Positions 2,995 to 8,797 of a stretch of DNA of 64,000 nt are shown here, one piece after another; position 1 is the stretch's first letter; each line of letters begins with the position of its first letter. A program made the position numbers and the translations under genes. Source of the DNA: Bryopsis sp. KO-2023 (Eukaryota; Chlorophyta; Ulvophyceae; Bryopsidales; Bryopsidaceae); contig BSYQ01000010.1 of NCBI GenBank assembly GCA_030272585.1, positions 2,666,001 through 2,730,000 of the forward strand, read 5' to 3'. Under the pieces are notes generated by a model. That model was given only the letters and a program-made list of their open reading frames with translations, did not search any database and was not told the origin of the DNA.

Positions 2995-5900
2995 ATGGTT
3001 TATCGAGTGGAGTATTTTTTCTTGCTGGCGTTCTACGCCATTCTTAGCTTCACGAATGGGGCTCCAGTTTTTGAGGGGGGGAGCCAGGTTCAATTTTTCG
3101 ACACCGTCAACGTTATCGACGGAAAGCGATGCACCATTCGACGAGTGAGTATTGTGTGTGTGTTCGTTGCTCTGTTTTGATGTGCCCCCCCCCCCCCCCT
3201 CTTTGTTTCGTGTGCGTGGTGGTGTCTTCTCATCGGCAGTTTGGGTGTGCATGGTTCTGCACGTATGGTTTCCCCCTCTAAACTACAGCGCAAAATCTGT
3301 GAGTAAACAAAACGCCCCCTGAGTCAGTTTTCCATTCCCTCAGAGCCCCGACGAATCACGAAAAGCTGGACTGCGTTGCTTAGAGGCGGACGTCGACAAC
3401 GGTGAGAATCGACACGTGGCACCTTGTTTGCTCGTGTATTTCAGCCCCACCACCGCAGGATCGCCGAAAACCGACGACTGCAACACGTCGAAACAGTGTG
3501 GGGGCCTTTTTTTCGATAAAGAGGGACGCCGAGTGGCCGTTGTTTTCCGCCAGTGGCCTAGCAGTTTGCTTTTCTTGCATTCAATGCGCGACGGCTGACT
3601 GTACGATGTCCTCAGCACACCCCGTGGTTGGCGTCTCATCTATCGAGATGATTTAGCGAATTGACGGAAAGCTTTCGTAACTACAATGCATTTTTTTTCC
3701 CAGTATAAATGCATGCAAGTTGATTTTCTCAGGAGTAGATCCTATCATGGCAGAAATTCCAATTCTTGGGGTGCCTCAGAAGCATAATTTCTTGAATCTG
3801 CCCAGACATTCACACATCTTGTTCGTTCAGCTGTGACTTCCGGCTGGACGGAGTATTTTTCCGAGGGTTCGCAGCTTTCAAGATGCTGAATGTGGAAAAT
3901 ACGATGTTGTTGTGGGGTTTTTTTGTATGCACAGGGATAGGTTTTCCGGGGCCCCAGGCGCATGAGCTCATGAACGTCCAGGACCTCCCTCAAAGCTTCT
4001 TTTGGGGGAATGTCGATGGGGTGAATTACTTGACGGAGTCCCGAAACCAACATTTGCCAGAGTGAGACATGGGCACATGTTTTTTTTGAAACAATCGAGT
4101 GCTTTTTAAGGACTGCCACCGGTGTAATTTTTTTTTCCGATTTTACTGTCCCCAAAGTGGTCCTAAATTTGGCCATTTCATCTTGTTGTGGGGCCCTTCT
4201 GTGGCCCCAATTTGTCCGAAAAAATTAGAATGTGGCCCCAACTTCAAAAATAGAAATTACCTGGCTTGGTTTTTAAAAAGCTGTTGGTTTTTATTTTTGT
4301 GGAATCTCGTTTGATTTCTTGGATGTGGCCCTTTTGCGGCCCCAAAATTTGCCGTTTTAAAATTTTGGGGGCCACAATTAGCAAAAAGGGCCACAAAAAA
4401 ATACACTGACTGCAACAACAAAAAAATCCACATCTGGGCTCTTTTGTTTCATGGAGCTTTCCTTTTTTTTGTCATTGAAACTGTTGGGCGATCCCTTTGA
4501 TTTGCCATGGCAGATATTGTGGAAGCTGCTGGGCGTTTGCCTCGACATCCGTTTTGTCAGATAGAATAAAGATCAAGAGAAGGGCTGAATTTCCAGACAT
4601 CAGATTGTCGCCTCAAGTCCTTCTCAATTGCAACGGAGGGGGTTCCTGCCATGTGAGCATTTCATTTTCATTTTTATTTTATTAAAAAGGGGGGGGGGGG
4701 ATATTTGATTTTGACTTTTCCCTCAAAAAACAAAAAGGGAAAAAAGAAATGAAATGACACAAACAGTGCGATGAGTTGTTTGTTGGTGGGTTTTTTTTCT
4801 CCCTTTCATGATGAGATGTTTTTCGGCTTTTCTTATATTTTCTCTATTTTCTTTATTTTTTGGACCACGTTTAAATAGAATCATAAAAAAATGATGCGTA
4901 GGGGGGGTACCCACAAGGAGTATTCAACTATATGCACAAATTCGGGCTTCCCGAGGAGACCTGTCAAAACTACATGGCATCCGAAAGGGAATGCCACCCA
5001 CATGGGATCTGTGAAAAGTGTAGCCCTAACCAGGTATGCAATTCGAAAAAAGGGAACAAATTCAAAGATCTGTGTTCTGATTTCACTTACACGTGTGTCG
5101 AAACTACTTGAATTGGGGATACGAGAGAGGGCAGCACTTGTTTTTGTCGGCCCAATGAGAATTCACAACATGCAACATGCAAATCCTTCCCTGTGGAGCA
5201 TGCCACGTGCCCTTTCGATCGGAAAGAATTCTCTGGGTTATCTTCTTTTCACTGTGCCCACGCCCCCGTCATATTTTTTTCTTGTCTTTGTAGGATGGAT
5301 CCTCGGAAGGGAAAAATTGCACAGCCATAAAAACTCACACTTCGTTCACGGTGGATTCCTTCGGAAGGAGCGGCTACGGTTACGATCGAGCCAACTATGG
5401 GCATTGGTCCGGAAACTCCGACAGACTGAAGGCAGAAATCTTTATGAACGGCCCCATCGTGTGTGCTATTTATGCGACGCAAGGATTCGATAACTACACG
5501 GGTGGAGTTTTTCAAGACTTTGGTTATCATTGGTCGTCCAACCATGACATCAGTGTGGTCGGTTGGGGAGTGGATGATTTGGGCCGAGAGTGAGTGTTTT
5601 TTTTATGCTTCTTTTGAAACAGATATTCAGCAACAGTCCGAAAAACGTTACCCAGATACACGGATATTTTATATATATCACAGGAATCAAGAAAATGCCA
5701 AATTTTGCTTGAAGCGTTTTCGCCCCAATGATACTATTTCGATTGGTAATAACGTTGAAATGCGAGTAGCGTTGAATTGCTGAACATCCCTAAGATCTAT
5801 GTATATATGTAATAATATTTAAAAAAATCCTTTTTTTTCCCCTCCAGTGGAGTTTCATGTGGCATGATGTTGATTGATGTTATTTTTTCTTGTCGTTTAA

Positions 5901-8797: not shown

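Follow-up and report, generated by a model that had tools for sequence, protein, structure and literature searches.

The gene described here lies near the start of the window, the whole 64,000-nt stretch of Bryopsis sp. KO-2023 DNA that was analyzed (C10:2666001-2730000). Rebuilding its model from the exon borders on the window sequence yields 12 exons that, spliced at GT-AG borders, form a single open frame of 628 codons whose coding region spans exactly positions 2995-8797 of the forward strand. The predicted protein begins with a signal-like stretch and a pro-region, after which come two cathepsin X domains (hereafter D1 and D2) separated by a linker; Pfam recognizes Peptidase_C1 twice within it, with E 4.4e-83 over the full chain. 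A paralogue with the same order of parts is located on the reverse strand at C10:3106106-3111054, 0.43 Mb from the window gene, and comprises ten exons and 612 codons. The exons of the window gene carry the following features.

2995..3144, +, exon 1: start codon in CCCACCATGG context; hydrophobic, signal-like N-terminus (by eye); beginning of the pro-region, including Cys C46
3344..3401, +, exon 2: pro-region, with the second pro-region Cys, C62
3935..4061, +, exon 3: end of the pro-region, start of D1, and NQHLP mini-loop; intron 3 is common to the paralogue in alignment column and phase
4514..4652, +, exon 4: D1 nucleophile Cys C117 (codon 4527-4529)
4902..5033, +, exon 5: Cys-rich middle of D1
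5294..5589, +, exon 6: part of D1 holding the catalytic His, H286
6229..6393, +, exon 7: last part of D1, including the catalytic Asn, N307; retention of the following intron gives a GTG TGA stop
6796..6896, +, exon 8: linker exon, in phase with both neighbors; no counterpart exon in the paralogue; putative borders
7021..7211, +, exon 9: start of D2, NQNSPQYCESSWAHA; Ser S424 (codon TCT, 7122-7124) replaces the nucleophile Cys
7635..7853, +, exon 10: Cys-rich middle of D2
8144..8346, +, exon 11: D2 His H572 and Asn N593; the Cys pair C548/C567 found only in D2
8692..8797, +, exon 12: end of D2 and stop codon

Directly upstream and on the same strand, a prenylcysteine lyase gene occupies positions 1-2390 (+) in exons, two of which were checked against Pfam, one scoring above the cut-off and the other just below it. 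Farther along the window, open frames match an ABC transporter (21916-22467, +), ATP synthase (PF00231; 30934-31581, +), and an MFS transporter (38089-39075, -), and a single frame of 846 amino acids (44064-46601, +) encodes an F-box together with an extended series of leucine-rich repeats and, in contrast to the cathepsin genes with their many introns, has no interruption. Intron 3 of the cathepsin gene harbors a dispersed repeat (4130-4400) rich in GTGGCCCC, which recurs in at least 39 other places on many contigs over about 200-300 bases at 77-87% identity (40 of 217 candidates were scored), and similar letters can be seen by eye downstream of the paralogue. Intron 9 contains a (CTTT)n array of about 46 copies (7217-7400). 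At positions 33830-34160, inverted arms built from arrays of a 9-base unit surround a telomere-like run of the plant type, (AACCCTA)n, together with a GC-rich stretch; this short element, which looks like a small non-coding mobile element, is matched almost in full at no fewer than two other places (81-85%) and in part at many more across the genome (40 of 148 candidates scored). On another contig, ten divergent ubiquitin-like matches fall within about 63 kb (C17:134909-198217), apart from the ordinary polyubiquitin genes. Light-harvesting exons are abundant in the genome (107 matches), and one such gene agrees with a Photosystem I antenna chain of Bryopsis (6igz_7) at 190/196 positions; by this one protein the host is probably a siphonous green alga, Bryopsis or a near relative. 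A chlorarachniophyte host is disfavored both by that protein and by the polyubiquitin repeat, which measures 228 bases (76 amino acids) and lacks the inserted residue typical of that group.

Among all solved chains, cathepsin X is the nearest relative of both papain-family domains of the window gene. The best match to D1 is procathepsin X (1deu, E 1e-65), with cathepsin X (1ef7) at 3.3e-64 and the next family at 3.1e-30; D2 is closest to 1ef7 (E 1.2e-45), with 1deu at 1.3e-45 and the next family at 2.1e-22. NCBIfam gave no match to either domain at E 0.01. The active-site letters of D1 read NQHLPEYCGSCWAF, and in 1ef7 numbering this domain carries Gln22, His23, Gly29, Cys31, His180, and Asn200, each identical to its counterpart in the active enzyme. 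Those of D2 read NQNSPQYCESSWAHA; here Gln22, His180, and Asn200 are kept, and Cys31 has become Ser, His23 Asn, and Gly29 Glu. A first-pass annotation of this DNA had described D1 as intact, mini-loop His included, and D2 as having Ser at the nucleophile and Asn at the mini-loop His while retaining the catalytic His and Asn, and both descriptions hold in the alignment to 1ef7.

The paralogue extends this comparison to four domains. Its D1 keeps the catalytic Cys (C112, the counterpart of window C117) but shows Asn in place of the mini-loop His, with Gly29 replaced by Phe, and its D2, with the letters NQRIPQNCNSGWAHS, has Gly at the nucleophile site; Cys31 is present in both D1s and absent from both D2s. 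Because Cys31 is replaced by Ser in one gene and by Gly in the other, D2 is classed here as a presumptive non-catalytic homologue and not as a cathepsin X enzyme. His180 and Asn200 occur in 4/4 domains, as does a three-residue mini-loop insert beside the oxyanion Gln that is absent from the four prokaryotic relatives aligned (out of eight fetched). The mini-loop His is kept in window D1 only; the idea that its loss is coupled to loss of the nucleophile, raised in the first-pass annotation, is weakened by the D1 of the paralogue, which lacks the His but keeps the Cys. Each of the four domains has 10/10 of the structural Cys of the human enzyme, which presumably form five disulfides. On a list of 10 cleft residues picked by 1ef7 number, with the nucleophile left out, window D1 keeps 10/10 (and Cys31 and His23 besides), window D2 9/10, and paralogue D2 7/10. 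A sequencing error at the TCT codon is unlikely to be the whole story, as the D2 of the paralogue is also without Cys and the neighboring Gly is changed in both D2s. In the pro-region, the window protein has Cys at C46 and C62, one of them in a context that we take to resemble that of the human pro-region Cys; the HMMER alignment to 1deu does not reach this region of the window protein. The sole Cys before D1 in the paralogue is C16, inside the signal-like stretch, so that as modeled no Cys lies between that stretch and D1, and an N-glycosylation motif is absent from the whole paralogue protein. With these traits, and with its mini-loop His and Gly29 replaced, the D1 of the paralogue may itself be turning into a non-standard or dead enzyme.

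A papain-family search of the genome (91.1 Mb, 28 contigs) gave 14 matches in four loci. Two of these are the window gene and its paralogue; C5 and C9 each hold one further papain-like gene, that on C5 with a granulin-like tail by eye. Protein searches with window D1 and paralogue D2 led back to these four loci and to no others at E values up to 1, with no further cathepsin X gene among them, bearing in mind that such searches proceed exon by exon and could miss a very divergent single-domain copy. Window D1 is 46% identical to paralogue D1 (120/263) and 47% identical to the human enzyme (112/236); the two D2s share 37% (88/236). Relatives from elsewhere were found on one viral contig (23% identity) and at seven prokaryotic loci (21-33%), from 72 and 52 pattern stretches. 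When a profile was run on open frames of at least 80 amino acids at these eight loci, one domain was found in 7/8, and at the other locus (L028) a single frame held two partial matches, each to a different half of the profile, as would be expected of one domain that is split. Within the DNA examined, none of the eight viral and prokaryotic loci holds a two-domain relative.

Where cathepsin X has a single catalytic domain, Pfam finds two Peptidase_C1 stretches in the window gene and likewise two in the paralogue. Chance is no explanation for this finding, because the domains match at 1e-45 or better and the paralogue has the same layout. Exon 7 of the paralogue, 358 bases long and ending at a GC donor, contains the end of D1, a Pro-rich linker, and the start of D2 without an intron. 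Within the limits of sequence evidence, this settles the fusion for the paralogue and, because all three elements lie there in one exon, makes a fusion much the most probable interpretation of the window gene, which at this level is confirmed as a predicted two-domain cathepsin X gene whose D2 lacks the nucleophile. The initial claim of two cathepsin X domains in one gene is thereby upheld by the 628-codon frame, the two Pfam stretches, and the layout of the paralogue. A further claim, that a single in-phase exon links the domains, stands in part: exon 8 is in phase with both neighbors, but a scan of donors at 6330-6420 and acceptors at 6900-7070 found 18 in-frame joins that skip exon 8 by means of other GT/AG pairs, and because of these the exact linker, which sequence does not fix, could differ from the one modeled. 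Linker length and letters also differ between the two genes.

Intron positions, read from the flanking residues, bear on the order of events. The four introns within D1 are all shared in place and phase between the genes (4/4), as are the three within D2 (3/3), intron 5 being two columns apart in the four-domain alignment owing to an adjacent gap. In the pro-region, which cannot be aligned, two introns correspond by order and phase, and the linker of the window gene is interrupted by two introns that the paralogue lacks. No D1 intron coincides with a D2 intron, the nearest pair lying seven columns apart (231 and 238, both phase 2). Because introns are shared from D1 to D1 and from D2 to D2 and never from D1 to D2, the two-domain gene is older than the gene duplication. 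Exclusively shared columns number 21 for the D1s (6 of them gapped in the human row) and 11 for the D2s, with 7 for D1 and D2 of the window gene and 9 for those of the paralogue. In a tree, D1 pairs with D1 (82/87) and D2 with D2 (82/82), values that fall below the tool's firm-support mark on a tree with long branches, those of the D2s measuring 1.45 and 1.17 changes per column. Taken together, the introns, exclusive columns, and tree say that D1 and D2 parted first and that the two-domain gene then duplicated. The possibility that D2 is a recent copy of D1 is disfavored by the lack of any intron common to the two and by D6, R8, A16, H34, I63, and N107, positions at which the D2s match the human letter against that of both D1s. 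The AU test disfavors pairing D1 with the D2 of the same gene (p 0.0455 and 0.038, borderline values from four such tests, uncorrected). A tree of the domains, advocated earlier as a means of dating the duplication, thus recovers the pairing of like with like, but both placements relative to the algae/animal split survive the AU test, neither the D1s with human (p 0.111) nor the four algal domains together (p 0.11) being rejected.

Several features suggest that D2 has been under constraint. In both genes it is open over its full length. At the 85 columns where the human enzyme and both D1s agree, window D2 keeps 57 and paralogue D2 56; the structural Cys account for 10/10 in each, versus 47/75 and 46/75 of the other core columns (Fisher p 0.014 for the window gene and 0.011 for the paralogue). 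An extra Cys pair at 1ef7 positions 156 and 175 is common to both D2s and absent from both D1s and from the human enzyme, and these residues may form a bond. The pN/pS ratio is 0.49 for D2 and 0.45 for D1, a coarse guide with synonymous sites saturated (pS 0.80-0.87). Because the ten structural Cys persist, the extra pair is shared, and pN/pS is 0.49, D2 looks maintained, and because the sister gene has the same layout, the dead copy was probably kept for a job of its own.

We propose that D2 serves as a tethered, non-catalytic partner of D1, and the specific form that we favor is a fused pseudo-heterodimer whose second protomer carries out no catalysis; we regard this proposal as about evenly balanced between right and wrong. 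The window protein would enter a secretory or vacuolar route by way of its predicted signal peptide, and its pro-region would then be cleaved off. For human cathepsin X, a 2026 review describes the pro-region as tethered to the active site by a disulfide (PMC13257197), and the enzyme is stated to be unable to process itself (PMC10707025). D1, with its catalytic residues all present, would be expected to trim single residues from C-termini, the mini-loop being credited in the same review with conferring carboxypeptidase action on cathepsin X (PMC13257197). D2, predicted to have the cathepsin X fold and to be unable to act as a cysteine protease, may pack against D1 or hold a peptide in its cleft, and could thereby set the stability, substrate choice, or activity of D1. 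It would perhaps replace one protomer of the cathepsin X homodimer, which the review gives as the active, mature form (PMC13257197) and which is also stated for cathepsin X in a paper on a related enzyme, dipeptidyl peptidase I (PMC8836896). Our preference for the fused pseudo-heterodimer comes from the reported homodimeric action of the human enzyme; on that basis, the simplest view of a chain joining a live cathepsin X domain to a dead one would be a tethered dimer whose halves have become unequal. More tentatively, we suggest a full history in which a cathepsin X homodimer was frozen into one unequal chain, D1 holding the catalytic residues and D2 acting as a pseudoprotease protomer that controls D1, the arrangement having been made once before the gene duplication and kept in both copies while the dead site went to Ser in one and to Gly in the other. 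The linker could also be cut, freeing D2. The window protein and the paralogue need not work alike, because the D1 of the paralogue has Phe at Gly29 and Asn at His23.

It is very unlikely that two tandem genes have been wrongly joined, with D1 ending at a stop after exon 7 and D2 belonging to a separate gene. Tandem genes would accommodate the observation that read-through from exon 7, with the following intron retained, stops at once (GTG TGA) to give a D1-only protein of 356 amino acids, as well as the shortness of exon 8 and its lack of a counterpart in the paralogue, and other starts for D2 are possible. The stop is not special, however, as any GTGAGT donor in that phase gives one and it is to be expected anyway, and D2 is in phase with D1 through exon 8. 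In the paralogue a single exon spans the whole junction from D1 through the linker into D2. The candidate in-frame starts for D2 (6821, read through exon 8, and 7032) lack a signal-like stretch by eye, which would be odd for a domain with ten conserved Cys, and none of the 11 ATGs in 6397-7100 begins, again by eye, a signal-peptide-like stretch that continues into D2. D2 could have a separately spliced start, and the ATG at 6640 opens 12 rather hydrophobic residues followed by a stop. Least credible to us is that D2 is a decaying relic without function. The change of the nucleophile to different residues in the two genes and the long D2 branches are in keeping with decay; against it stand full-length open frames in both D2s, the 10/10 structural Cys, the shared new Cys pair, the pN/pS of 0.49, and the fact that all 3 D2 introns are shared.

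Other readings give D2 a different role. It might be a serine-type hydrolase using Ser-His-Asn, an arrangement employed by silicatein, although we consider this improbable. Window D2 keeps nine of the ten listed cleft positions, a list from which the nucleophile is missing, and an older report claims chymotrypsin-like activity for a fragment of SERA5 (PMC3265493). Yet Gly29, beside the nucleophile, is Glu in window D2, and the D2 of the paralogue has Gly at the nucleophile site and keeps only seven of the cleft positions, so the idea fits just one of the two D2s. Moreover, SERA5 with its Ser is stated to have no protease activity, its Ser-to-Ala change no phenotype, and its role is concluded to be non-enzymatic (PMC4671257). 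The first-pass suggestion that D2 became either a regulatory or binding module or a Ser-type enzyme like the SERA5 group thus survives in its first half, with signs that D2 was kept as a non-catalytic module; its second half is not favored. Possible, if somewhat doubtful, is that D2 acts in targeting or ligand binding whatever the activity of D1, as an arm that would take hold of a peptide or glycan or anchor the enzyme in the wall or the vacuole. Consistent with such an arm, the fold-bearing Cys are kept while catalysis is lost, D2 has an extra Cys pair of its own, and the two N-glycosylation motifs of the window protein are confined to D1, so that the surface of D2 differs from that of D1. 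The same facts fit a tethered partner, however, and both ligand and location are putative; the non-catalytic partner of D1 remains our preferred reading.

The nearest known system is cathepsin X/Z (CTSZ; 1deu, 1ef7), with which the algal domains share, beyond the best solved matches, the mini-loop insert, ten Cys, His180, and Asn200 in all four, and Cys31 and His23 in window D1. The pro-region of the alga appears by eye to be longer than the 38 residues of the human one (PMC13257197). Earlier it had been held that known cathepsin X proteins have one domain, and this agrees with the solved entries and with statements in the same review, within the scope of these sources (PMC13257197). The algal chain differs in having two domains, the second without a nucleophile, and in continuing, with a linker and D2, past the point at which the human chain stops. 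SERA5 of Plasmodium, which has one papain-like domain, resembles window D2 in carrying Ser in place of the Cys while retaining His and Asn, but not the D2 of the paralogue, where the residue is Gly; the best solved hit and the mini-loop insert mark D2 as cathepsin X-like, which would tend to speak against descent from the SERA group. TINAG, silicatein, and soybean P34 are inactive papain-like proteins that, like D2, have the nucleophile changed to Ser or Gly and the fold kept, but they are cathepsin B- or L-like and have one papain domain each. None of these three is known to be fused to an intact cathepsin X.

In the open-access literature searched, which leaves most subscription journals outside, no two-domain or tandem cathepsin protein was found by title or abstract start, and for Bryopsis and cathepsin there was no fitting title among the matches listed. 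As far as titles and abstract starts show, no paper in that literature describes a cathepsin X doubled in one chain, its second copy a putative pseudoprotease, and kept in two paralogues. A live and a dead cathepsin X would be locked together twice in one genome, and a fused pair of this kind, if true, bears on why cathepsin X pairs up at all. Because no other cathepsin X genes were found at the sensitivity used, the fused form may be the one that the alga lives with. Live and dead relatives are paired elsewhere, in two chains by caspase-8 and cFLIP and within the same chain by the JAK kinases with their pseudokinase. In these systems the dead relative tunes the live enzyme, as D2 may tune D1, and JAK, where this happens within one chain, provides our working analogy, although the folds are different and the likeness is one of analogy only.
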